Below are positions 4,050-64,000 of a DNA stretch of 64,000 bases, piece by piece. A program made the translations under genes and the position numbers. The DNA comes from Flavobacteriia bacterium (GTDB lineage Bacteria; Bacteroidota; Bacteroidia; Flavobacteriales; Schleiferiaceae). How positions within the stretch are numbered: the stretch's first letter is position 1; each line of letters begins with the position of its first letter. The DNA lies in assembly GCA_013373425.1 (NCBI GenBank), contig JABXHW010000050.1, positions 25,916 to 89,915 of the forward strand, written 5' to 3'. The notes beneath the pieces are model-generated. The model did no database searches and was not told where the DNA came from. It worked only from the letters and a program-made list of their open reading frames with translations.

Positions 4050-5495
4050 CTAGTAGTAACGCTTTCTGCGAACTTGAGCGATGTACTTGCTCAAGCGCAT
4101 TACTTGGCGAGTGTAACCGTACTCGTTGTCGTACCACACGTACAATACCAATGAACGGTTGTCGGTGTGAACGATGGTAGCCTTACTGTCGAAAATTGAT
4201 GGGCAAGAGTTACCGATGATATCGCTAGAAACAAGCTCGTTGCTGATGCTGAACATGATTTGCTCAACCAAGTTGCCTTTCAAGGCTGCATCGCGCATGA
4301 TTTCGTTTACGTCTTCTACAGAAGTGTCTTTGCCTACAGTGAGGTTCAAAATCGCCAAAGAACCATCTGGAACAGGAACACGAATCGCGTTTGAGCTCAA
4401 CTTCGCGCCCAAACCTGGGATGGCTTTGTCAACTGCTTTTCCCGCACCTGTCTCAGTGATAACCATGTTCAAAGCAGCAGCGCGACCACGACGGTATTTG
4501 CTGTGCATGTTATCTACCAAGTTCTGGTCGTTCGTGTACGCGTGGATGGTTTCAATATGACCTTTCTCAATGCCCAACTTGTCGTTGATCACCTTCAATA
4601 CTGGAACGATAGCGTTCGTAGTACAAGAAGCTGCAGAGAAGATGTCTACTGTATTTGGATCGTAATCCATTTGATTCACACCGTGAACGATGTTTGGAAC
4701 ACCTTTACCTGGAGCAGTCAAGAGAACTTTAGAAGCTCCTTTAGCCTTGAGGTGGCGACCCAATGCTTCATCATCGCGGAAAGCACCGGTGTTATCGATG
4801 ATCAATGCATCATTGATACCGTATGAAGTATAGTCGATGTCTTCTGGTGCGTTAGCAGCAATCATGTTGATGCGACGGCCATTGATTACCAATGCCATGT
4901 TCTCAACGTCCGCTTCCACTGTGCCAGGGAACTGACCGTGAACTGAATCAACGCGGAGTAGGGAAGCACGTTTTTCAAGCGACTCAGCTGTTTCACCGCG
5001 AGATACGATGGCGCGCAAACGAAGCTGCTGACCACGACCTTCTTGAGCGATGAGCTCGCGAGCTACCAAACGTCCAATACGACCAAAACCGTAGAGAACA
5101 ACGTCCTTAGGCTCAACTTTAGAATCAGATGATCCGATGAAGTCACCCATTTTAGCTGCTACGAAAGCTGCTTTTGAATCGAAAGAAGAACCTTCTTCCA
5201 ACCATTCTGCTGCCAATCTACCGATGTCGAAACGCGCTGGACAAATGTCGGCGTTCAATACTTCGGTTGCCAAACTCAAAGTGTCGGCAATGGTGATGTT
5301 CTTTCCAACTACTTTCTCAGCGTAGTTGTGGAGATTCAAAATCTCACTCGGACGCTGGTCGATAAGTGTGTTTCGGAACAATACAGTTTCAACGCCTTTG
5401 TCGTAAAAGAGGTCGCTGATAACTTTGATGAACTCTGTGGCGGATTTCTCCATACCAATCCGTTCTTGAACGGAATTTTCATAAGAGATTGACAT
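4050..5495 (-). CDS. gap: Glyceraldehyde-3-phosphate dehydrogenase, long form
   Basis: Cytoplasmic glycolytic/gluconeogenic enzyme that interconverts glyceraldehyde 3-phosphate and 1,3-bisphosphoglycerate. The core runs from the Rossmann motif YGFGRIGR (about residues 135-142) through the catalytic SAASCTTN (Cys291) to WYDNEYGYT near the C-terminus. At 481 residues it is about 140 longer than standard GAPDH. The extra part is an N-terminal helical extension (residues 1-130) seen in the long GAPDH class of Bacteroidota and some other bacteria. Cofactor preference cannot be read safely. A second in-frame Met at residue 15 is an alternative start. It is monocistronic, with its own promoter (5532-5562) and terminator. 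Confidence 0.93.
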   Translation of the reverse strand: MSISYENSVQERIGMEKSATEFIKVISDLFYDKGVETVLFRNTLIDQRPSEILNLHNYAEKVVGKNITIADTLSLATEVLNADICPARFDIGRLAAEWLEEGSSFDSKAAFVAAKMGDFIGSSDSKVEPKDVVLYGFGRIGRLVARELIAQEGRGQQLRLRAIVSRGETAESLEKRASLLRVDSVHGQFPGTVEADVENMALVINGRRINMIAANAPEDIDYTSYGINDALIIDNTGAFRDDEALGRHLKAKGASKVLLTAPGKGVPNIVHGVNQMDYDPNTVDIFSAASCTTNAIVPVLKVINDKLGIEKGHIETIHAYTNDQNLVDNMHSKYRRGRAAALNMVITETGAGKAVDKAIPGLGAKLSSNAIRVPVPDGSLAILNLTVGKDTSVEDVNEIMRDAALKGNLVEQIMFSISNELVSSDIIGNSCPSIFDSKATIVHTDNRSLVLYVWYDNEYGYTRQVMRLSKYIAQVRRKRYY

Positions 5496-15252: not shown

Positions 15253-18200
15253 TTACTCGTGAGTTACGATGAACTTCAGTGTACGTTGTTCTCCATTAAT
15301 GGTAACATTCGCGATGTACATACCATTTGTGAAGCTCTCAGTGTTCACGCTTACAGCGTTCTTACCAATTGAGAGTTTTTCATTCGTTGAGAAGATAACC
15401 TGACCAAGCAAGTTGGTGATTGAAATCTCCGCATCACCGTTCACAGAAGACAGGATGTTGATATCCGTGTAGCTATCTGCTGGGTTAGGGAAGATCTGAA
15501 GATCACCAATAGCGCTAGGCTCTAGTTCTTCGATACTAATTGGACCTGTAGAAGGTGGATTTCCAGTAATTGTGAAACAGAAATCATCTACAGTCCATCC
15601 CGCACTTTCAACGGTGTAATCTGAAGCGAATCTCCAACGGAATACCACCGTACCAATAGTGTCTACAGAGAATGTAGCTACTGATTTGGTCCATGGGAAC
15701 TGACCACTCCAGCCACCAGAAAGGCGGTTGAGTGAAGTTACGTGAGTAGTATTGTACCAAGTACCGTTAGGATTCACAGAACCCAAGGTGTACCAGTTGA
15801 TACCCCCGTTGAAGCTGAATTCGATAGCGCCACCGTCGTGATACTGCTCGCCGTTCATCTGGTGCCAGAAGCTGAATTCATAAACAGAATCAGGAACCAA
15901 GTTGAAGAATGGCGTGTGCAGTGCACTCTCATTCAGGTTTTCATAATTGGAGTCGAGATCGACACTCCATGCATTTGACCCTGAGTAAGTACCCGGTAGA
16001 GTAGGTTGAGTTGGGTTACCAAACTCCCACTCGTGTTGCAACTGCTTATCGTAAGAGTGGAGTGCAACCAATGGAATAGCATTCGGATCCTCAAAGTCAT
16101 TACAGTAGTTGCTAGAGTCACGTGTTGGAGTAACCTCAGGCAATACTGAGAATGTGAAGCTGAACAGGTCATCCGCTGGACGGTTATCCGCCTTTGGAAT
16201 ACTGTCGAATGCAGATTCAGGGCGAGACGTTTGAATGTCTACGGTATGTGGTCCTGGTGCCATAGGGCCAGTAGGAGTAGTGAAGTTATAACGAACCACT
16301 TTACCTTTGAAGAAATTAGGTTCGCTCACTGTCTCCCAATTCGACCATGTACCATTGTCGATTCGATATCTGATCTTGTAACCGCGCAAAACTTTCTCAC
16401 CTGTGTTCTGAACGCGAGCCCAGATATTCGCTGGTTGATTAGGTACTACCAAGTACTCTTTAGTATCACCAAAGATTGGGCTTACAGAGTTCTGTGGAGG
16501 AACGATTATGTTGAAGTCATCGATGCTCCAACCACGTCCACCTGAAGTGGTACCCGTAGTTTGCAATTGATAACGAAGACGAAGTGGGTTAGGGTTGAAG
16601 TTCCAAATCAATAATGGGAACTCCGCCAATTTCCAGCCGGCACTGCTGCCAGTCCAACCCTCACCACCGTTGAAGGCAGGTACACCTGCAACGTCGTACC
16701 AGTTTACACCTACTTGAGTAGAGTTGAAACCGAATTGGTTCCAGCTACCGTTCAAGAAGTATTCTACACGGCCACCATCACCACCACTAAAGTCGAAACG
16801 GTGACGGAAGCGTAGAATAGCACCAACTACGGTGTCAAATCCAACAAGTGGTGGAACACGAAGACCTTCGTTGAGGTTCTGGTAATCAAAGTTATTTGCA
16901 ACGTTCCAAGAGCTAGGTGCAGAGAACGCAGCGTTCCAAGAACCTTTCTGAGGAGTACCGTGCTCCCATGCTTTCAAACCACCTTGTGAGAACCAGCCCT
17001 TAGTGTCATATGAACAGCTGTCGAAGTTCTCATTCAAGTAAGGAATATTGATCTCCTTGAAGGCAGTAGGGTAGTAGTCGACGGTATCATTCCAAGTATT
17101 AGCGTCACTAGCCATTCCCGTGTACGCTTGGATGTGCATCACGCCCGTGTAATAAGCAGGATTGTTTGGCAATGTCACTTCTGTAGATGCGTGAGCGGCA
17201 ATCGGACCAGGAACTGTGTAGTTTACAGTATTGGTCTTGCTTGGGTCACAGGCATCTGTTACGATTACAGTAAGAGGAACGTTTGAAACTGCAGCCTCAC
17301 CGTAGTTTTGAACGATAACCTTTGTAGCAGGTTGATTCACTGCATCCATGTTTACAACATTTGGACTAGTGATAATTGCTGCACCTACGTCAGTCTGACC
17401 ATCTTCGTCCCAAATCATGATGTTATCGATAGCAGCATCTGTAGCATTGCCCGTACCTCCTGATTGTACGATGATTCTCAAGCGAACCAATCCGCCTACA
17501 TAAGCACTAAGATCAGCGCGCTTCCATCTCCAATCATCTGTAGTTGATGTCTGTTGAGGAGAAGTCACTGCGCTTCCAGGTACATCCAGCCACTGTGTGG
17601 TTCCATCTAGCTGGTACTGCACTTTGATGAAGTTCACGTTTGCACCATACATGTGGTACCAGTAAGAGATACTTGGGTTGGTCATGTTGGTCAAATCCAC
17701 ACAACGATCCAACTCGTAACGTGCGAAGTTGGTACCTGTAGCACGACTGTCGGTGTAGAGGTAGTTTCCGTCTCCTTTGAAGTCGCGACGTGGACCTGTG
17801 TTGAAGTCTTCTGTCACTTCACGGCCTACAACGAAAGCCAAATCGGCTTGGTTTACCGGAGGAAGAACCAACCAGTCAGGGTTACCATAAGTACCCGGGT
17901 TATTAATGGTACCGTTTCCGTATACCCAACCTGCACCGTCGAAGTCCTCTACATAAGGGAAGCTGTTAACTGGTTGAATGTGCTCGATGAGGAGTGGGCC
18001 AATGGTATCATTGGTATTATCACCATCACCTGGCATATCTACCCAAGCGTAAATTTCAAATACGCCGTATTGGCTCAAGTCGGCCTTAGGAACAGGAATG
18101 TAATTCATGACATCACCCAACTCCATAGTATCAGTAATCACGTCTGTGAGAATTACTGGCGTTCCGCCGTTCAAGCTAACGCTGAATCCAACTGGAATAC

Positions 18201-20013
18201 TGTCTTGAGTAGCACATCCTTTAGATCGGATTACAAATTCAACGTCCTCTGCGTTGGAGTAAGAACAAAGACCATTGACTGGATTTTCGAAATTCACCAA
18301 TTCCATATCGATTGGATTTGGCTCGTAGATAGAGATATCATCGATTGCGATATCCTGCATATCACCGGAAGTACGCTTAACCCCCAAGAAGCGGAAGTTA
18401 ATGGTCTGACCTGCGTAATCCTCTAAAGGAACAATAGCAGTAGACCATGCATCATTCGAAGAAGTGTGCTGTGAACCTACATACTGAGATACGCCTTGAA
18501 CAAACTGTCCGGGTGTACCACCCGTACTTGTATCGATATCCACACGGATAAGACCACGTGGTGTATTGTTGAAGCTATTTCCATACATGTGATACTTGAA
18601 CTCTAGTACGGCACAAGTATTCGCTGGAAGGTCGAAACAAGGAGTGATGAGTGGTGAAGTATTTACACCGCTTCCACCTTGTGATGATTCTGTGTAGAGG
18701 TAGTTGCCTGAACCTGTGGTCGCATCTCCACTAGGTCCTGTATTCGCTGTACCCGTAGGTCCATTGATCACACTCCAGCCGTAACCAGCTTGCGCTGGTA
18801 GTGGTGTTACCTGCCAGTTTCTTCCAGAAGGAGGGTTACCCAATGGGAAGTTACCTCTGTGTGCAGAACCCGTATTTCCCGATCCTGAACCTGCCGTCCA
18901 AAGACCTGGGTTCTCGAAGCTTTCCGTGAATGGGAAATTCGCCACGATATACGGGAAACTGTTTGTAGATGTAGGTCCGCACTTCGCTGGTGGCGAAGGG
19001 TCAATCCAGAACTTTGCATATGGATCGGCAGCTGCCTGATCTGGGAAGCGCGCAATATTCGGACATGCACAGTCTTCAACATATACTTTCCATTCTACAG
19101 TGTCACCAACCACAAGGCCTGGGATAATGTAGAAATATTGAGATACCGCTGGACAAGTCGCACTCACAGCCGCAGTCATGAGTAGCGTAGTATCTGGCGC
19201 ACCATTGATGCTGTATGTAAGAAGTACGCTATCTACACCGGCACCTGCGTCACTCGCTTCAAGGCGAATTTCTTGGTTGCTCTGGTAGCGCGGCCCAACG
19301 GGTTGTCTTGCTGTAGAGAAACTCCAATCGATTTGTGGCGGTTGAAGTTCACAGGTAGAACCGATGATGTCGATGTTGTCCACATACCATCCTGCATAAG
19401 AAGCAGCGATATTCGGGTTAACATCCACCACTGCAAAACGAATCTGGCAGTGTGTGTAAGGATTCGTGGCGTTCACCATCAAGTTCGACAAGTCGAACGT
19501 TTCGTGCGCCCACCAGTTTGATGAAGGCGAGCTGTTGTTGAACGGATCCCAGTATGGGGATGCTGATGGGTTCGGGTAAGATCCTCCGTTGAAGTACACC
19601 GTAGAGTTGTAGCCTGGACTGGCACCCAAGTAAGCGCTGCCTGGGATAGATGTCCATGTGGCTCCACTATCTACCGAATACTGAACACGACCTTGTTGTA
19701 CGAGGTTCAACTTACAGATGTGGTCGAACTCCAAACGAACGTTGGTCAAGTTTACAGTGGAGAAGAAGTCGGTGTACAGATACTTGGTCTTGTTGATGGT
19801 ACGAACTCCGCGCATACTGTTCGGAGATGATACGCTCAAGTTTGAAGCCAAGTTCCAACCGCCCGTAATTACGTTTTGGTTGAGATTGTCCATTGTCGTC
19901 GTGGTGGTCTGGACAACCGTCGAATCGAAATTCTCGATGAATAAGTCGACCAACTGTGCGTGCGAAAAGTTAGCGACCAATAATAACCCAAGGGTGGGTA
20001 TCCATTTTCTCAT
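15253..20013 (-). CDS. Giant T9SS-secreted surface protein with repeated jelly-roll modules
   Basis: A 1586-residue secreted protein with an N-terminal signal peptide (cut after NFSHAQ) and a C-terminal sorting domain (QIFPNPADSYTDI, then ITNLLGQVI, then FTNGMYIANV). Between them are at least five repeats of a roughly 200-residue module. Each has a FEN or NFDS start, a YLYTDS or YLYTES strand, a FKYHMYG, YWYHMYG or FWHQMNG strand and a DIAIDDISI-type end. These are the choice-of-anchor-J/MAM-like jelly rolls common in Bacteroidota surface proteins. Spacer segments resemble CARDB-type domains (VNQPATKVIVQNYGEA). No catalytic residues are evident, so adhesion or carbohydrate binding is likelier than hydrolysis. 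It is monocistronic. Confidence 0.85.
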   Translation of the reverse strand: MRKWIPTLGLLLVANFSHAQLVDLFIENFDSTVVQTTTTTMDNLNQNVITGGWNLASNLSVSSPNSMRGVRTINKTKYLYTDFFSTVNLTNVRLEFDHICKLNLVQQGRVQYSVDSGATWTSIPGSAYLGASPGYNSTVYFNGGSYPNPSASPYWDPFNNSSPSSNWWAHETFDLSNLMVNATNPYTHCQIRFAVVDVNPNIAASYAGWYVDNIDIIGSTCELQPPQIDWSFSTARQPVGPRYQSNQEIRLEASDAGAGVDSVLLTYSINGAPDTTLLMTAAVSATCPAVSQYFYIIPGLVVGDTVEWKVYVEDCACPNIARFPDQAAADPYAKFWIDPSPPAKCGPTSTNSFPYIVANFPFTESFENPGLWTAGSGSGNTGSAHRGNFPLGNPPSGRNWQVTPLPAQAGYGWSVINGPTGTANTGPSGDATTGSGNYLYTESSQGGSGVNTSPLITPCFDLPANTCAVLEFKYHMYGNSFNNTPRGLIRVDIDTSTGGTPGQFVQGVSQYVGSQHTSSNDAWSTAIVPLEDYAGQTINFRFLGVKRTSGDMQDIAIDDISIYEPNPIDMELVNFENPVNGLCSYSNAEDVEFVIRSKGCATQDSIPVGFSVSLNGGTPVILTDVITDTMELGDVMNYIPVPKADLSQYGVFEIYAWVDMPGDGDNTNDTIGPLLIEHIQPVNSFPYVEDFDGAGWVYGNGTINNPGTYGNPDWLVLPPVNQADLAFVVGREVTEDFNTGPRRDFKGDGNYLYTDSRATGTNFARYELDRCVDLTNMTNPSISYWYHMYGANVNFIKVQYQLDGTTQWLDVPGSAVTSPQQTSTTDDWRWKRADLSAYVGGLVRLRIIVQSGGTGNATDAAIDNIMIWDEDGQTDVGAAIITSPNVVNMDAVNQPATKVIVQNYGEAAVSNVPLTVIVTDACDPSKTNTVNYTVPGPIAAHASTEVTLPNNPAYYTGVMHIQAYTGMASDANTWNDTVDYYPTAFKEINIPYLNENFDSCSYDTKGWFSQGGLKAWEHGTPQKGSWNAAFSAPSSWNVANNFDYQNLNEGLRVPPLVGFDTVVGAILRFRHRFDFSGGDGGRVEYFLNGSWNQFGFNSTQVGVNWYDVAGVPAFNGGEGWTGSSAGWKLAEFPLLIWNFNPNPLRLRYQLQTTGTTSGGRGWSIDDFNIIVPPQNSVSPIFGDTKEYLVVPNQPANIWARVQNTGEKVLRGYKIRYRIDNGTWSNWETVSEPNFFKGKVVRYNFTTPTGPMAPGPHTVDIQTSRPESAFDSIPKADNRPADDLFSFTFSVLPEVTPTRDSSNYCNDFEDPNAIPLVALHSYDKQLQHEWEFGNPTQPTLPGTYSGSNAWSVDLDSNYENLNESALHTPFFNLVPDSVYEFSFWHQMNGEQYHDGGAIEFSFNGGINWYTLGSVNPNGTWYNTTHVTSLNRLSGGWSGQFPWTKSVATFSVDTIGTVVFRWRFASDYTVESAGWTVDDFCFTITGNPPSTGPISIEELEPSAIGDLQIFPNPADSYTDINILSSVNGDAEISITNLLGQVIFSTNEKLSIGKNAVSVNTESFTNGMYIANVTINGEQRTLKFIVTHE

Positions 20014-30079: not shown

Positions 30080-33000
30080 TTAACGCTGCACGGCGAATCG
30101 CATAGTATAGCTCTCATTATCACCGTATGTTCTCAAGAGATAAACTCCCGCAGGTAGGTCGGTAATATCGAAATTAACGTGTGCCTTACCGTCCAGGCTA
30201 TTCTGAACAGCGAGTTGTTTTCCATTTATCGTGAAAATTTGTGCACTCTGGATGCCCAAATCTCCTTCTACGGTGAACAGCGAAATCTGAGACGACGCTG
30301 GGTTAGGAGCCAGGATCCAAGAAGATGGTGCATCTTCTGGAAGGTTTATGTTACCAATAACAACGGACGATGTATCTGGGCCACAACGGTTGGAAGTGAT
30401 CAACATTACTGTAGTTGCACCTCCAGTGGAGTACAAATACAGCGGGTTTGGATCATTGGAAGTACTTCCATCTCCAAAGTCCCAGAAGTATGTGTCTATG
30501 GAACCCGAGCTAGGGCCGGAACTAAATTGCACTTCATACCCGTTGCTACCCGGTACAAATGCATAGGTCAATCCAGCGCGAGGCTTTTGACTAATTGGGA
30601 ATACCACGTTAGAAGTGCTTGTTCCACCGCCATTAACTGCAGTCATTTCAACCAACTTAGATCCGCCAAAGGTGTATGTCACATTGTGCGGACCGTTTCC
30701 TGTGGCAGATGCAGGTGAAGCACCTGAGCCAAAGTCCCAAGTAACCGTAGTACCTGCAGCACCTGGATAAGTGAAGGTGAAGGTTCTCGCCAAACATGAA
30801 TCGGCCAAGTTACTAGTGAAGGCGCTAGAAGGAGGAGTGATACTCAAATCGTACAATTGAACATTATCCAAATACAGTGCATTACCGCCATCGGTGATGT
30901 TCACGAAGCGGATTTTCACGCTTGAGCCTGCATAGGCTGTCAAGTCGATAGTGTCTCTTCTCCAGTGGCCCGCTCCGGTTGGGATGTACTCATTATTCTG
31001 ATTGATGTTCAAAGTAGTGAGAGCTCCTGTGGTTCTATCGTACACGGCAGGATCCCAAGTATTTCCACAGTCAGATGAAATCTGAATCTGCAGACGATCA
31101 TTCTTGTTTGATGTAGTTCCAACATAGGCAACGTCAAACACGAGGGATGGAGAGGTAGCCGTGCTGAGGTCGATGCTTGGAGAATTCAGGTAGTCACGCT
31201 GACCAGTTGATCCGTAACTAAAGTTGTTTACTCGGAATGCACGTCCAGCTGAGCCATTGTACTCGATACAGGTCTGCGATTCCCAAGTGTTCAATCCATC
31301 AGGATTCTCTACAAACCAACCAGAAGGAACGAATACAGAAGGGAAGTCCTCGATGATTGGAAGTGGAAGACCATTACCCGCAATAACAGCATTTGTGGTT
31401 GTAATCGTGTCGGCCCCATTGGAATTCGAAGCCACCAAAGTGATAGTGTAGTTGCCTAAAGCATTGAATACCACTTGTGGATTCTGACTTGTAGACGATG
31501 TGCCGTTTACAAAGTTGTATGTGTTCGGAGTGATGCTCCATGTCCAAGTCGAAGGCACATTTGTGCTCTGATCAATGAGATCTACGACTTCGCCTGTACA
31601 AGGTGTTGGATTGCTTACGCCGAAGCCTGCAATTGGAGCAGTGCTCGCTTGGGTGATACTGAAGTCGTCAATAGCAATATCTCCCTGATAATCAGAGCCA
31701 GTACTGGCACGGAATCGGATGCTAACGATCTGACCTGCCCATGGCACTAAGCTCAAATTTTCGTTCATCCAAATGGATCCTTGAGGACCAACCTTTGCTG
31801 GTACGATATCCAAGAACCATTCACCATTACTGAACAAATCAACATGTAATTCTCCGATGTGTGAACCTTGCATGTGGTATGCGAACTCTAGCTGAGGTAG
31901 AGTTGTATTAGTCAGGTCTATACATGGTGAAACCAAAAGTGCTTCTTGGAAATTACATCCTCCACTGGCTTCCAAATACAAATACTTACCAGCACTTGTT
32001 CCTAGGGTGTTGTCGTTCGATGGTCCCGTTCCTGATGAAGGAGTAGAACCACTGTTTGTACGGAAATCAATATCATCGAACGTACCATTTGATAGGTTGT
32101 TCCAGTCATCAAAAAGTCCACAAACGGTAGCACCACAGTCGGTAGTAGTCGGACAATTAGAGAATCCATCGAAGTTCTGAGTGTACGGGGCTGTTTTAGC
32201 TGTGCCGCCTGAAGCCACAGTGAATGTCACTTCGCTGGTATCGTTGTAGATGTTTCCATCATTCATAGCATTCGACCAAACCTTCACAGTGTAAGAGCCC
32301 AAGGATGAAGCATTCACAGTTGTTGGGAAAGTGAAGTCGAGGGAAGCACCCGAGGCTAGCGTGTTGTAGAGGGTATCTAATACCACAGTTCCATTGAACT
32401 CATATCCGATTGGAATACTGTCCTGACCATTCAATCCAGTGTTGCGGAATCGCGCCTTGATTGGCATGGCGGTAAGGTCGTGGCATGCTGCAACTTCTCC
32501 CGGTTGAGGCGAAGTGAGTTCAACTATTCCAATGTCGTTTACAACCACACAACCCTGAAGGCCCGAACCTTTTAGGCGAGCAATCGCACGCTTTCCAGGC
32601 TGACCGTTCTGTGACGGTACTGCAGCCACAGACCACCAAACTTCTTGTGTAGATGGTATATTTCTGAATACGTGGAATGTGTCGACAGTTCGTGCGATAC
32701 TGTCCATGTACTTCGCGCCGAGTGCATAAACTTCATATTCGAAGGCTCCTGGTAATGGGTCCCAAGCAACAACGAAGCTATCCGGACAAGATTGAACGAG
32801 ACGAAGCCCGTTAGGCTGATTGATCAAAGTTACAGGCGCATCTACCATGTCGGTCTGTGTGCCGCGGGTAATTCGAATCAACAAATCATTTGTTGGAGTC
32901 GTAGGAACGCTCGTCCAAGTGTAAGTTCTAGCACCAGCCGCAGCGTTGCCAATATTACTCCAGCTTGTGCCATTGTTGGTGCTGTATTCAAGTGTGAAAC

Positions 33001-34972
33001 CCTGAGTTCCATCTGAAGCATCCCAGTAAATTCTAGTTGAACCCGAAGTGGTGATTGCTTCACCACCATAAGGATAAGTGAGCTCAACATCATCGGGTAC
33101 AAATGAATAGACGAGGTAATATTTCTGAGGTCCAACTGGAATATTGGTTCCGCCAATGCGAACCGTATAATTTCCTTGAGCAGGATTAGCAAGCGTAACC
33201 TGTTCTGCGTTATTCATTGTATCGGTGGCGCGAACTGCATTGGAGTTCAATGCAGTGGCGTTAGGAGTAGGATCGAGCACCCATGGTTGAAGAACAGAGG
33301 TGTCAGTAATCTTCAAGGTCAAGTCCAGATCATTCACCAAAACACGGCCGGCAGCTGGAGACGCGGCTGGATCGGTCCAGTAGAGCATTACTCTCAGCTC
33401 CGCTGTGTTGGCAGGAACTGAAATCTGGAAGCTATCCATTTGCGCTGTTGTGATCGAGTCGGTGATGAACTGACCCGCTTCGATGTCTCGAATACCGCGA
33501 AGAATATTCATTCGACCGTATCCATAGATGAAGTCCGGACCTGGGTTTCCAAGGTCATCCGCCGTATTCATCAAAATGGCTTTTAGCAATCCGCCATCTG
33601 GTTCGTCGCTATGGTTCTCTTCGTAGGCTTGGAACATTTGAGCCATAGCGCCGGCAACACCTGGAGCGGCCATACTTGTTCCGGTCTTGAATCCGTACGT
33701 GTGCGGATCGATAGTGGAAAATACACTTGAACCCACACTAGAAATGTCTGGCTTCAATCGTCCGTCTGCAGATGGTCCTCTAGAGCTAGATGGAGCAATC
33801 ACATCATTTGCATCGATGTTGGCAGTAGCGATAACATTCTTACCGATTTTATGTCCACCAGTGACATTACCCCAACCAGCTCCAGCGCCATAGTTACAGT
33901 TATTCGAACCGGCGTTACCCGCACTAAATACGTGCATCAAGTGATCGTTGTCGTAAATATCCTCATCCATTTGCTGTGAGTAGGAGGTATATCCCGCGTT
34001 ACAGCCATTGGAATAACTCGAGTTTGTGATGCGGACGGCGTGAGAAACGTAGTCGGCATCTACATCGTTCAAGTTTCTTGGGTAACGGTAGTAGAACATA
34101 TCAGCTCCAGGAGCCATTCCTTCTCCTTCCGGATTAATGTTTCCTGCACCGAAAATGGTTCCGGCCACGTGATCGCCGTGATCACCTGAACTGGCATTGG
34201 TGTTTCTAGCAATGATTCTTCCTTGGTAATCCGCGTGAGGTCCGATGTCACCATCATCACCTAAGCCAACAACTACTCCTGATCCGTCGTAATTACGGCC
34301 ACCGGTGAATCTGTTCTTTACGGATAGTGAGCGTGCGCTGCGAATCGCGTTGAAGTTTTCAGGCTCCCCTGGATCTTCACCTACCTGCAAGAAGGCAATG
34401 GCGCGATCAGAAGCCAATTCGAAACGGTCTTCGAGATCAATTTCTATCGTGAGCTTCTCATGATATGGGTCGTACTCTGTTACGTCATAGCCCATCTCGT
34501 TGAGTCGGTAAGCCACCATTTCAGTATTGCTGTGGGGAATGAGCCCTGCTACTACTTCAATGCGATTGGCCCCTCGTACTGCATATTCAGGAATATCGAG
34601 ATCGGTCAATCGACGGGTCATCTTCATTTCAGGTGACAAAACATCCACCGCGAAGAGTGGAAGGTTTCCGAAATCTCCTGCATTTAAATCTGAAGGGAGC
34701 ACCATGGTATAGGCATAGTCGGGAAGGTAATTGATTACTTCACCAACATTCTCAGCCAACCATTCTTGCTCATTCTGAGTAAGGGGTCGAGTAAATTGAA
34801 CAACTCTGAACAAGGACATCCCTTCATCGTTTAGAGCTGTTAGAGCGAGCTCATTCGATGATGGAGTTAGTGTATAAGTACCACTGTTCAGAAGTAATCG
34901 TGGAGCGTCTTGTGCGACCAATGCGCCCCCGATTGTAAGGGAAAGTAGCAGTGTGTAAAGCTTCTTCATCAA
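30080..34972 (-). CDS. Giant T9SS-secreted subtilisin-like (S8) protease
   Basis: 1630 residues. Signal peptide ends near ALVAQ; residues 25-200 look like a propeptide. The S8 domain (about 215-500) has the Asp motif VVVGLGDDGD (Asp239/240), the His motif GDHGDHVAGT (His265) and the Ser motif GTSMAAPG (Ser433). A jelly-roll domain (DSFQISVPANTAELRVMLYW) follows. Further on are fibronectin-like and CARDB-like modules, two choice-of-anchor-J modules, PKD domains (FVNGTSSTSQNPQVVF and YFWDFGDGSTSN) and the T9SS sorting domain (ILAPNPASSQISL ... GVYLLRT). It is predicted to be an exported or surface-bound protease for protein digestion. It is divergent from the PIG-L gene. Confidence 0.92.
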   Translation of the reverse strand: MMKKLYTLLLSLTIGGALVAQDAPRLLLNSGTYTLTPSSNELALTALNDEGMSLFRVVQFTRPLTQNEQEWLAENVGEVINYLPDYAYTMVLPSDLNAGDFGNLPLFAVDVLSPEMKMTRRLTDLDIPEYAVRGANRIEVVAGLIPHSNTEMVAYRLNEMGYDVTEYDPYHEKLTIEIDLEDRFELASDRAIAFLQVGEDPGEPENFNAIRSARSLSVKNRFTGGRNYDGSGVVVGLGDDGDIGPHADYQGRIIARNTNASSGDHGDHVAGTIFGAGNINPEGEGMAPGADMFYYRYPRNLNDVDADYVSHAVRITNSSYSNGCNAGYTSYSQQMDEDIYDNDHLMHVFSAGNAGSNNCNYGAGAGWGNVTGGHKIGKNVIATANIDANDVIAPSSSRGPSADGRLKPDISSVGSSVFSTIDPHTYGFKTGTSMAAPGVAGAMAQMFQAYEENHSDEPDGGLLKAILMNTADDLGNPGPDFIYGYGRMNILRGIRDIEAGQFITDSITTAQMDSFQISVPANTAELRVMLYWTDPAASPAAGRVLVNDLDLTLKITDTSVLQPWVLDPTPNATALNSNAVRATDTMNNAEQVTLANPAQGNYTVRIGGTNIPVGPQKYYLVYSFVPDDVELTYPYGGEAITTSGSTRIYWDASDGTQGFTLEYSTNNGTSWSNIGNAAAGARTYTWTSVPTTPTNDLLIRITRGTQTDMVDAPVTLINQPNGLRLVQSCPDSFVVAWDPLPGAFEYEVYALGAKYMDSIARTVDTFHVFRNIPSTQEVWWSVAAVPSQNGQPGKRAIARLKGSGLQGCVVVNDIGIVELTSPQPGEVAACHDLTAMPIKARFRNTGLNGQDSIPIGYEFNGTVVLDTLYNTLASGASLDFTFPTTVNASSLGSYTVKVWSNAMNDGNIYNDTSEVTFTVASGGTAKTAPYTQNFDGFSNCPTTTDCGATVCGLFDDWNNLSNGTFDDIDFRTNSGSTPSSGTGPSNDNTLGTSAGKYLYLEASGGCNFQEALLVSPCIDLTNTTLPQLEFAYHMQGSHIGELHVDLFSNGEWFLDIVPAKVGPQGSIWMNENLSLVPWAGQIVSIRFRASTGSDYQGDIAIDDFSITQASTAPIAGFGVSNPTPCTGEVVDLIDQSTNVPSTWTWSITPNTYNFVNGTSSTSQNPQVVFNALGNYTITLVASNSNGADTITTTNAVIAGNGLPLPIIEDFPSVFVPSGWFVENPDGLNTWESQTCIEYNGSAGRAFRVNNFSYGSTGQRDYLNSPSIDLSTATSPSLVFDVAYVGTTSNKNDRLQIQISSDCGNTWDPAVYDRTTGALTTLNINQNNEYIPTGAGHWRRDTIDLTAYAGSSVKIRFVNITDGGNALYLDNVQLYDLSITPPSSAFTSNLADSCLARTFTFTYPGAAGTTVTWDFGSGASPASATGNGPHNVTYTFGGSKLVEMTAVNGGGTSTSNVVFPISQKPRAGLTYAFVPGSNGYEVQFSSGPSSGSIDTYFWDFGDGSTSNDPNPLYLYSTGGATTVMLITSNRCGPDTSSVVIGNINLPEDAPSSWILAPNPASSQISLFTVEGDLGIQSAQIFTINGKQLAVQNSLDGKAHVNFDITDLPAGVYLLRTYGDNESYTMRFAVQR

Positions 34973-39405: not shown

Positions 39406-39495
39406 GGAAGGTGACAATCTGCTACATGTCCGACATAAGGGCATGACTCCATGACTGAATTCCTTGATTTTCATGGCATTTCAGGGTATTGGCCT

Positions 39496-39503
39496 TACCT
39501 TTG
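39496..39503 (+). promoter_or_regulatory. -7 box upstream of the FKBP gene
   Basis: TACCTTTG fully matches TAnnTTTG and lies 29 nt before the FKBP ATG; no -33 box was evident. Confidence 0.4.
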
Positions 39504-39532
39504 CGACTTCATTTGAAAAAAGAAAACGGATT

Positions 39533-39961
39533 ATGTCCACAGTAAAAGCAAATGACACCGTACGTGTCCACTACACAGGAAAATTGAATGACGGCGAGAT
39601 CTTCGACTCAAGCGTTGATCGCGACCCATTGCAGTTCACAGTTGGAGCAGGTCAGATGATTCCTGGTTTCGACAAAGCAGTGGAAGGTATGGAGCTTAAC
39701 GAGAAGAAGACCGTAACTCTAGCACCAGCTGATGCTTACGGCGACGTAAATAAAGATCTCTTCCACAAGGTAGAGCGCACTCAGCTTCCAGAAGATTTGA
39801 AGCCTGAAGTAGGCCAGATGTTGGTGGCAGGCTCACCTGACGGTCGTGAAATGCAAGTTCGTGTTGCTGAAGTAGCCGACGATGCGATCACAATCGATGC
39901 TAACCACCCACTTGCTGGCAGAGATCTCACTTTTGATATCCAGTTGGTAGAGATTCTCTAA
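39533..39961 (+). CDS. FKBP-type peptidyl-prolyl isomerase, SlyD-like
   Basis: Folding catalyst for X-Pro bonds, probably cytoplasmic. The start is ATG 39533 (MSTVKANDTVRVHYTGKL) because the longer ORF runs through the promoter. At 142 residues it contains the FKBP core (FDSSVDRDPLQFTVGAGQMIPGFDKAVEGM) with an inserted flap (about residues 70-125: APADAYGDVN ... HPLAGRDLTFDI), which is the SlyD/FkpB two-domain arrangement. The His-rich metal-binding tail of E. coli SlyD is absent. A strong terminator follows. Confidence 0.93.
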   Translation: MSTVKANDTVRVHYTGKLNDGEIFDSSVDRDPLQFTVGAGQMIPGFDKAVEGMELNEKKTVTLAPADAYGDVNKDLFHKVERTQLPEDLKPEVGQMLVAGSPDGREMQVRVAEVADDAITIDANHPLAGRDLTFDIQLVEIL

Positions 39962-39982: not shown

Positions 39983-40017
39983 AAACCCCGTTGGCGTAAT
40001 GCTGGCGGGGTTTTTTT
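39983..40017 (+). terminator. Terminator of the FKBP gene
   Basis: AAACCCCG-TTGGCGTAATGCTGG-CGGGGTTT followed by a T run. Confidence 0.88.
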
Positions 40018-40028
40018 GTGGGAAGGAG

Positions 40029-40077
40029 CGCAGAACGCAGAACGCAGAACGCAGAACGCAGAACGCAGAACGCAGAA
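40029..40077. repeat. Tandem array, 7 copies of CGCAGAA
   Basis: Seven perfect 7-bp units, followed to about 40100 by decayed copies (GGAGCGCAGGAACGCAGG). It begins 12 nt after the FKBP terminator and is the outer part of composite element A. Confidence 0.97.
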
Positions 40078-40136
40078 CGCAGGAGCGCAGGAACGCAGGA
40101 ATACAGGTGGCACGAACACGAAAGCACGCAGCTACC

Positions 40137-40164
40137 AGTATTAAGTATCCAGTATCCAGTATTG
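40137..40164. repeat. Heptamer array AGTATYN (element A)
   Basis: Four 7-bp units AGTATTA, AGTATCC, AGTATCC, AGTATTG. Between it and the CGCAGAA array is a GCACGNNN-like octamer stretch (40110-40132). The same array recurs at 63851 and, inverted, at 60811. Confidence 0.9.
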
Positions 40165-40192
40165 ATTCAGAACTAAAACACCCCTGAAGGTC

Positions 40193-40238
40193 AGCATACC
40201 CCAATCCGTGCTAAATTGTACCCAGTACCCAGTACCCA
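40193..40238. repeat. Conserved core plus heptamer array GTACCCA (element A)
   Basis: GCATACCCCAATCCGTGCTA, then AATT, then three GTACCCA units. The core matches 63908-63930 (GCTTACCTCAATCCGTGCTA) at 18 of 20 positions, and an inverted, more diverged copy lies near 60751-60780. The array ends 7 nt from the menB stop. Confidence 0.85.
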
Positions 40239-40244
40239 TTTCAA

Positions 40245-41084
40245 TCACGGTATCCACTTAATATCATCAAAGTTCGGCTTGCGTTTTTCGAGGAACGCAT
40301 TACGTCCTTCCTTTGCTTCGTCTGTCATGTAGGCAAGGCGAGTAGCTTCACCAGCGAATACCTGTTGTCCAACCATTCCATCGTCGGTGAGGTTGAAGGC
40401 AAACTTGAGCATCTTGATAGAGGTAGGTGATTTCTCAAGAATCTCTTGAGCCCATTCGTATGCAGTATCCTCTAATTCGTCGTGCGGGATAGACGCATTG
40501 GCCATTCCCATAGCAACTGCGTCGTCTGCGCTGTAGTTTCTACCGAGGAAGAAGATTTCACGAGCTTTCTTTTGTCCGACCATCTTAGCGAGGTAAGCCG
40601 ATCCGTAACCGCCATCAAAGCTAGTTACATCGGCATCGGTTTGCTTGAAGATAGCGTGCTCCTTACTCGCCAAAGTGAGGTCGCACACCACGTGCAAACT
40701 GTGACCGCCACCTACAGCCCATCCAGGAACAACTGCGATGACAACCTTAGGCATAAAGCGAATCAATCGCTGCACCTCGAGGATGTTCAAGCGAGGCATT
40801 CCGTCGTCGTCTACATACCCTTGATGTCCGCGAGCATTCTGATCGCCACCAGAACAGAAGCTGTATACACCGTCCTTCGGACTAGGTCCTTCGGCACTGA
40901 ACAGAACAACACCGATGTTCGTATCTTCTCTAGCGTCGAGAAATGCTTGATACAATTCAGCTACCGTCTTGGGACGGAATGCGTTTCTCACGTGTGGTCG
41001 GTTGAAGGCAATACGCGCCACTTTACCCGACTTCTTATAGGTAATGTCTTCGAACTCTCTAACGGTCGTCCAATTCGCTTTCAT
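40245..41084 (-). CDS. menB: 1,4-Dihydroxy-2-naphthoyl-CoA synthase
   Basis: Crotonase-fold enzyme closing the second ring in menaquinone synthesis. The 279-residue product contains the naphthoate-synthase signature: FSAEGPSPKDGVYSFCSGGDQ, PGWAVGGGHSLHVVCDL, TDADVTSFDGGYGSAYLA and the C-terminal YMTDEAKEGRNAFLEKRKPNF. It is the last gene of a six-gene minus-strand run. The other men genes are not in the window. Repeat element A abuts its 3' end. Confidence 0.96.
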   Translation of the reverse strand: MKANWTTVREFEDITYKKSGKVARIAFNRPHVRNAFRPKTVAELYQAFLDAREDTNIGVVLFSAEGPSPKDGVYSFCSGGDQNARGHQGYVDDDGMPRLNILEVQRLIRFMPKVVIAVVPGWAVGGGHSLHVVCDLTLASKEHAIFKQTDADVTSFDGGYGSAYLAKMVGQKKAREIFFLGRNYSADDAVAMGMANASIPHDELEDTAYEWAQEILEKSPTSIKMLKFAFNLTDDGMVGQQVFAGEATRLAYMTDEAKEGRNAFLEKRKPNFDDIKWIP

Positions 41085-60740: not shown

Positions 60741-60780
60741 TTGGTACTGGGTACAACATTTCACAGCTAGGGGTAAGCTC
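60741..60780. repeat. Core and GTACTGG heptamer of composite element C (inverted)
   Basis: TTGGTACTGGGTACAAC, then a diverged core ending GGGGTAAGCTC. It is the reverse complement of the core layout at 40193 and 63906, but the middle of the core is poorly kept. Confidence 0.65.
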
Positions 60781-60810
60781 ATCTAGTGGGGAGAAGCTGT
60801 TCTGAATTAA

Positions 60811-60838
60811 TACTGGATGCTGGATACTGGATACTTGG
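60811..60838. repeat. Heptamer array TACTGGA (element C)
   Basis: TACTGGA, TGCTGGA, TACTGGA, TACTTGG; reverse complement of the AGTATCC arrays. It is preceded by TTCTGAATTAA, which matches the reverse complement of TTGATTCAGAA in element A. Confidence 0.9.
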
Positions 60839-60842
60839 GTTG

Positions 60843-60882
60843 CGTGCTTACGTGCATGCGTGCCCACGTGCCCGCGTTCTTC
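60843..60882. repeat. Octamer array CGTGCNNN (element C)
   Basis: CGTGCTTA, CGTGCATG, CGTGCCCA, CGTGCCCG, CGTTCTTC. Ends 8 nt from the stop of the facing gene. Confidence 0.9.
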
Positions 60883-63002: not shown

Positions 63003-63047
63003 AGTACAAGGTACTAAGTACTAAGTACTCGGTACTGGGTTACTAGT
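63003..63047. repeat. Heptamer array GGTACTA/AGTACTN
   Basis: AGTACAA, GGTACTA, AGTACTA, AGTACTC, GGTACTG, GGTTACT. The TAG stop of the next gene (63043-63045) lies inside it. Confidence 0.85.
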
Positions 63048-63645: not shown

Positions 63646-63725
63646 GTGAGCTTGTAACCTGGCAACCTAGTGAGCTGGTGAGCTGGTGAGCTGGTGACGT
63701 GGTGACCTAGTGAGTTGGTGAAGTG
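63646..63725. repeat. Octamer array GTGAGCTG
   Basis: Ten 8-bp units: GTGAGCTT, GTAACCTG, GCAACCTA, three GTGAGCTG, GTGACGTG, GTGACCTA, GTGAGTTG, GTGAAGTG. It begins 6 nt before the start codon of the amber-broken gene, where a promoter would be expected. Confidence 0.93.
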
Positions 63726-63755: not shown

Positions 63756-63787
63756 GCACATGAGCACGCATGCACGCGATCAAGCAT
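63756..63787. repeat. Octamer array GCACNNNN (element D)
   Basis: GCACATGA, GCACGCAT, GCACGCGA, TCAAGCAT; reverse complement of the CGTGC class. Confidence 0.75.
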
Positions 63788-63850
63788 ATGAGTTGTCAGT
63801 TCGCTTCACATGAGTTTCGTTCTTCAAGAGAACCATCATTGTCCAGCCCT

Positions 63851-63878
63851 AGTATTGAGTATCCAGTATTCAGTATCA
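63851..63878. repeat. Heptamer array AGTATYN (element D)
   Basis: AGTATTG, AGTATCC, AGTATTC, AGTATCA; same order and orientation relative to the core as in element A. Confidence 0.9.
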
Positions 63879-63905
63879 CTGTAAAACTTCCTCGCCTCTA
63901 AACAA

Positions 63906-64000
63906 GAGCTTACCTCAATCCGTGCTAGTTTGTACCCTGTACCCTGTACCCTGTACCCTGTACCCTGTACCCTGTACCCTGTACCCTGTACCCTGTACCC
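63906..64000. repeat. Conserved core plus ten TGTACCC units (element D, runs off window)
   Basis: GAGCTTACCTCAATCCGTGC, TAGTT, then exactly ten perfect TGTACCC units to the last base (63931-64000). No gene is visible between 63640 and the window end; the whole stretch is repeat arrays and short unique linkers. Confidence 0.95.

Follow-up and report, generated by a model that had tools for sequence, protein, structure and literature searches.

The space between an FKBP-type isomerase gene and menB is filled by several short tandem arrays, and the question raised by this locus is whether they are independent microsatellites or parts of one dispersed element. The window, that is the whole stretch of 64,000 nucleotides analysed here, covers positions 25916-89915 of contig C35 (89915 bases) in an assembly of 3,094,352 bases and 76 contigs. 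In the initial annotation three pieces of the window, A, C and D, were described as copies of a composite repeat, and all the parts described are present at their positions.

Element A lies between the FKBP-type isomerase gene (39464-39961) and menB (40245-41084, minus strand), a convergent pair, and begins just after the rho-independent terminator of the left gene (39985..40018, plus strand; hairpin CCCCG..CGGGG and T7). On the plus strand, its left outer array consists of CGCAGAA heptamers and then CGCAGGAR octamers (40029..40103; TRF, 93% matches). This is followed by a GCACG-type block (40105..40136, placed by aligning the left-hand contexts of 30 copies), the four AGTATNN units as a fixed block (40137..40164, aligned copies) and the 53-nt core (40165..40217; alignment of 25-30 copies, profile E 1.5e-23). 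The right outer array, (GTACCCA)3 at 40218..40238, stops 6 nt before the menB stop codon. Element C is on the minus strand and has a short right outer array adjoining the kdsB stop codon (60744..60755), the core (60755..60807; profile E 9.9e-21), four AGTATNN units (60808..60835, aligned copies) and a GCACG-type block (60838..60877). In D, on the plus strand, a degenerate GCACG-type block forms the left part (63756..63850), and the four AGTATNN units (63851..63878, aligned copies) and the core (63879..63931; profile E 9.3e-22) lead into a right outer array of the private unit GTACCCT (63931..64000; TRF 100% matches), which reaches the contig end. The ten right-array units read earlier in D are all there, and the count is a lower bound (at least 10) as the contig end cuts D. 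An octamer array of GTGAGCTG is found directly left of D (63670-63721), and a degenerate GTACTAG heptamer array stands beside a gene end at 63004-63046. Elsewhere in the window, two reading frames (15253-20013 and 30080-34972, minus; 1586 and 1630 aa) encode large proteins that are secreted and end in T9SS sorting tails; the 1586-aa protein has MAM domains, and the 1630-aa protein has a choice-of-anchor J domain and matches to subtilisin-like serine peptidases. Together with MenB and KdsB, the proteins that bear T9SS sorting domains point to Bacteroidota.

Within the window, the A core (52 nt) compared in register matched D at 34/52 and C at 33/52 positions, the two best matches found, and shuffled cores (n=200) gave best matches with a mean of 28.2 and a maximum of 33. 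Searches of the whole genome with blastn and a sequence-only profile revealed about 31 dispersed full copies, with E-values from 4e-24 to 6e-8, the low end being one weak, poly-C-flanked copy. The profile was built from 25 copies, for which its E-values are accordingly favourable; blastn with A alone, which is independent of the profile, gave 23 places below 1e-5, and the whole-genome blastn search gave 68 matching places. A 13-base core pattern with 2 mismatches was near noise (67 matches vs 37 for the reversed control). Elements are roughly 100-250 bp long with a fixed centre of about 80 bases. These results confirm that A, C and D are members of one dispersed repeat family in the 3.09 Mb genome; the dispersed and probably non-coding family proposed earlier is thus borne out, with one order genome-wide, and the core occurs in that shared order and neither as chance matches nor among randomly ordered arrays.

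The common order in all copies is (CGCAGGAR)n, the GCACGTAA block, four AGTATNN units, the 53-nt core and (GTACCCA)n. Aligned copies read (CGCAGGAG/CGCAGGAA)n, the GCACGTAAGCACGT block, CCAGCT, the four AGTATNN units, the core and (GTACCCA)n. Most copies carry exactly four AGTATNN units in the order TTG-TCC-TCC-TTT, typically AGTATTG AGTATCC AGTATCC AGTATTT, with the AGTAT letters 90-100% conserved and the two N positions variable. Because both AGTAT and the unit order are kept across copies, this block is part of the body of the element and not the free micro-array that the initial annotation had made of it. Similarly, the core given there as 20 bases is a segment of 53 nt whose length is nearly constant in the alignment of 25-30 copies. 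The proposed variation of array units, in sequence and in number, from copy to copy is confined to the two outer arrays, formed by CGCAGGAR octamers on the left side and by GTACCCA heptamers on the right; the AGTATNN block and the core are fixed. Of A, C and D, A alone has a long CGCAG-type array, in a 7-base form whose unit has turned into CGCAGAA; other copies have CGCAGGAG/CGCAGGAA octamers. On the other strand the right array reads GGGTACT, with one G-run per unit. With regard to a putative G-quadruplex fold, the D array fits G3N4 on the minus strand, and A has only three units. Private right-array units are seen in single arrays, GTACCCT in all units of D and CTACCCA in L009, and point to arrays growing in place after insertion. 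Core-less arrays occur at L025, L027, L029 and L120, some of them shifting from AGTATCC to AGTACCC.

About ten core copies break at a contig end within GTACCCA, and at least a dozen contig ends of the source assembly lie in GTACCCA repeats, a warning that short-read assemblies break in such arrays. At L101:1-235 several inverted, partial element pieces are crowded beside a poly-C contig end, which may be an assembly artefact.

Identity between core copies has a median of 63% and reaches 89% in the best pair, and the copies split into subfamilies. Allowing for rate variation among core sites raised the HKY lnL from -1020.1 to -1004.5 with gamma (alpha 2.06). As the rates differ among core sites, some positions were under constraint, whether from a function in the host or from earlier mobility. 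The consensus folding suggested in the initial annotation was carried out and gave no consensus structure: RNAalifold found no consensus pair on either strand of the core alignment, and the core has no covarying helix, the best helix score being equalled by 20/60 column permutations. Rfam gave no match at gathering score in the window; in the A region the best hit (E 0.48) was far below gathering and lay over the terminator. No inverted-repeat pair joins the A ends or recurs among the five copies examined, and no target-site duplication was seen at A in comparison with G001 and G002, two genomes of the same genus, but old sites have diverged.

Copies adjoin gene ends and favour one orientation. 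Among the 17 copies for which both neighbours were called, nine stand between convergent genes, compared with 12-17% of spaces in a 204-kb background sample (p <0.001; simple longest-ORF gene calls). In 24/29 cases the gene on the left is oriented toward the element (one is the SRP RNA). The right-hand gene is the nearer one for 15/17 core copies, and where that gene is convergent, its stop codon is in most cases no more than about 30 nt away from the right, G-run end. In an unselected sample of G-run arrays from the source genome and G002 (7 independent loci, two array pairs sharing a locus; none scored in the G001 sample), all nine were nearer the ORF on their own 5' side (median 36 vs 490 nt).

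The distribution of the element among relatives was studied next to that of its bare units. No match was obtained in 87 other genomes of the family, under stricter filters that can lose weak matches, nor by DNA search in 59 relatives, and three AGTAYCC units in tandem occur in 0/397 other genomes of the order vs 38 places in the source genome. The family is private to the source species among the genomes searched. Phage (216 bp) and plasmid (131 bp) searches gave no element match and IMG/VR no match to the composite pattern; carriage by phage or plasmid was rejected. Bare GTACCCA x3 is present in two IMG/VR contigs, and a contig pattern scan found the same heptamers, core-less, in Nostoc, Chlorobiaceae, Desulfobacterales and Chloroflexi. 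The FKBP-type isomerase gene and menB are convergent neighbours also in G001 and G002, and, as anticipated, empty sites exist there: the space is about 70 bp with only a terminator in G002, about 95 bp in G001, and 283 bp with A in the source genome. G001 lacks the element at the transketolase locus too, where several hundred bp of different repeats occupy the space in G002; for transaldolase and kdsB, the congener spaces give no clean comparison. On sequence comparison, the congener FKBP-menB spaces and the G001 transketolase space are read as sites without the element, and give no date for the insertion. The copies are old, as their core identities indicate, and for this reason no recent insertion was caught. 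With one genome for the species, the element is possibly ancestral and lost in the congeners.

The two congeners have families of their own. In G002 a module, CCCGAATCGGCTCCGCCTCTCGGGA..., is linked to AACCCTCT octamers and gives 81 matches; the source genome and G001 have none. The G001 module contains CCACGCGAAAGGATTCGCGCGG, is linked to GTCACCC-type heptamers and gives 42 matches in that genome; a single match of 23 nt was found in the source genome. Both modules contain palindromes. The G002 family is dense at, for example, L132:19170-19700 and L133:13700-14200, where 78-93-bp modules with AACCCTCT octamers are accompanied by CACGGGCTAAAGCCCGTGG palindromes and AGGCTTC heptamers. In G001 the CCACGCGAAAGGATTCGCGCGG module stands with GTCACCC/GTCATCC heptamers at L127:18600-18900 and 4120-4760, and a stop codon at the same locus is followed by an array of TGGGTTTGA nonamers. 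Since G001 and G002 hold private families, the genus has seen turnover of composite module-plus-array families. Each of the three genomes has its own short modules joined to 7-9-nt arrays, so that comparisons of close relatives can test how such intergenic repeats originate and turn over fast.

The element is probably a dispersed intergenic repeat that is private to the lineage, non-coding and non-autonomous, and whose G-run ends are prone to slippage. Copies would have inserted into intergenic spaces near stop codons or between convergent genes, gene-end spaces where insertions presumably do little harm. Each outer array would then lengthen and shorten in place by replication slippage, helped by its G runs. 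The core could be lost, and a solo array left behind, when the flanking heptamers AGTATCC and AGTACCC, which are nearly identical, recombine. The core-less arrays would fit such core loss, and they may instead have arisen independently. A mobilising enzyme, a terminal inverted repeat and a target duplication were searched for, and none was found for the element.

Other explanations account for part of these observations. Selection on a host-functional cis element, such as a protein-binding array made of the four AGTATNN units and the core, or a 3'-UTR element that affects the convergent gene, would explain the significantly different rates among core sites, the conservation of AGTAT next to variable N positions and the consistent orientation relative to neighbouring genes. 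However, past mobility can also yield constraint and subfamilies mimic it, no conserved RNA fold or Rfam match was obtained, and the element is undetected in congeners whose orthologous neighbours manage without it; we consider such a function unlikely. That the element is a MITE and depends on a DDE transposase acting in trans is quite improbable: it is indeed short, non-coding, intergenic, multi-copy and missing from orthologous sites, and a MITE with a minisatellite inside is known from Porphyromonas gingivalis (BrickBuilt; PMC4596501), but here no inverted-repeat pair joins the A ends or recurs in the five copies, and target duplication was not seen at A.

The genome has one RAYT gene (PF01797, E 1.9e-19, C61), some copies (L017, L028, L099) have REP palindromes nearby and the G001 and G002 modules have palindromes, so that a REP/REPIN-type element moved by this Y1 transposase could be imagined. 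The RAYT gene is however flanked by a different repeat, CATCGGGTGGTAACCCGATG, and the core is without a conserved palindrome or covarying helix, which makes this mover very improbable. The gene, a Y1_Tnp frame of 162 aa, is the single one of its kind and has its own CATCGGGTGGTAACCCGATG REP palindromes on its flanks (L071:1500-1900; G000:C61, G000 being the source genome). Defining features of the MITE and REP classes were looked for and not found in the element, which is therefore assigned to neither class. An integron attC-like site was considered as a candidate and set aside. Independent microsatellites without common ancestry are hardly conceivable: the same heptamers do stand alone in Nostoc, Chlorobiaceae, Desulfobacterales and Chloroflexi, but those places are core-less, whereas about 31 copies here share a non-repetitive core of near-constant length in a fixed order, and for the copies with a core this explanation is refuted. 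A reverse transcriptase was also rejected as mover, as no link to the element was shown: the only one is part of a type VI retron set, which lies on a different contig and is absent from G001 and G002, and no RT was found in these two congeners. The retron is at L147:1366-2786 (G000:C44, about 19 kb) and comprises an RT (PADLOC RT_VI, E 5.6e-57), HTH_VI (1.4e-30) and the small protein SP_VI (5e-4).

REP/REPIN sequences are short dispersed intergenic repeats that are lineage-private, palindromic and linked to RAYT. The private, non-autonomous repeat favoured here is likewise short, dispersed, intergenic and lineage-private, but its core is not palindromic and the RAYT of the genome has its own REP. 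BrickBuilt of P. gingivalis is a minisatellite in a MITE, with 19 copies in one strain (PMC4596501). It is, similarly, a species-specific intergenic family, with a fixed leader and tail around its tandem array; it has a 23-nt unit and inverted-repeat ends (PMC4596501), whereas the element carries units of 7-8 nt on either outer side, and inverted repeats were not found at its ends. TAACTGA direct repeats occur in Beggiatoaceae, Cyanobacteria and Bacteroidetes and, in the available part of that report, stand mostly just upstream of start codons in a Beggiatoaceae genome (PMC4679880). They too are intergenic heptamer arrays, patchy across phyla, but the unit is another one and the same part of the report describes no core (PMC4679880). 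In the available part of a further report, heptameric repeats that form G-quadruplexes are described in Xanthomonas (GGGAATC) and Nostoc (GGGGA(C/T)T), with the nearest ORF on the 5' side of the array (PMC4692102). The present arrays resemble these in their 7-nt intergenic units with one G run and variable length and sequence, and the polarity of all nine sampled G-run arrays (source genome and G002; 7 independent loci) equals the Xanthomonas/Nostoc rule; they differ in the fixed non-repetitive core joined to the array, for which that part of the report has no counterpart (PMC4692102). One process across several phyla that makes a private module with 7-9-nt G-run arrays, sets their fixed polarity relative to ORF edges and substitutes one such element for another among sister species would cover the source, G001 and G002 families together with the Xanthomonas and Nostoc arrays, and we regard it as distinctly unlikely. 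The arrays of the element belong with the G-run heptameric intergenic repeats, sharing with them the 7-nt unit with a GGG run, the intergenic tandem array and the proximity of an ORF on the 5' side.
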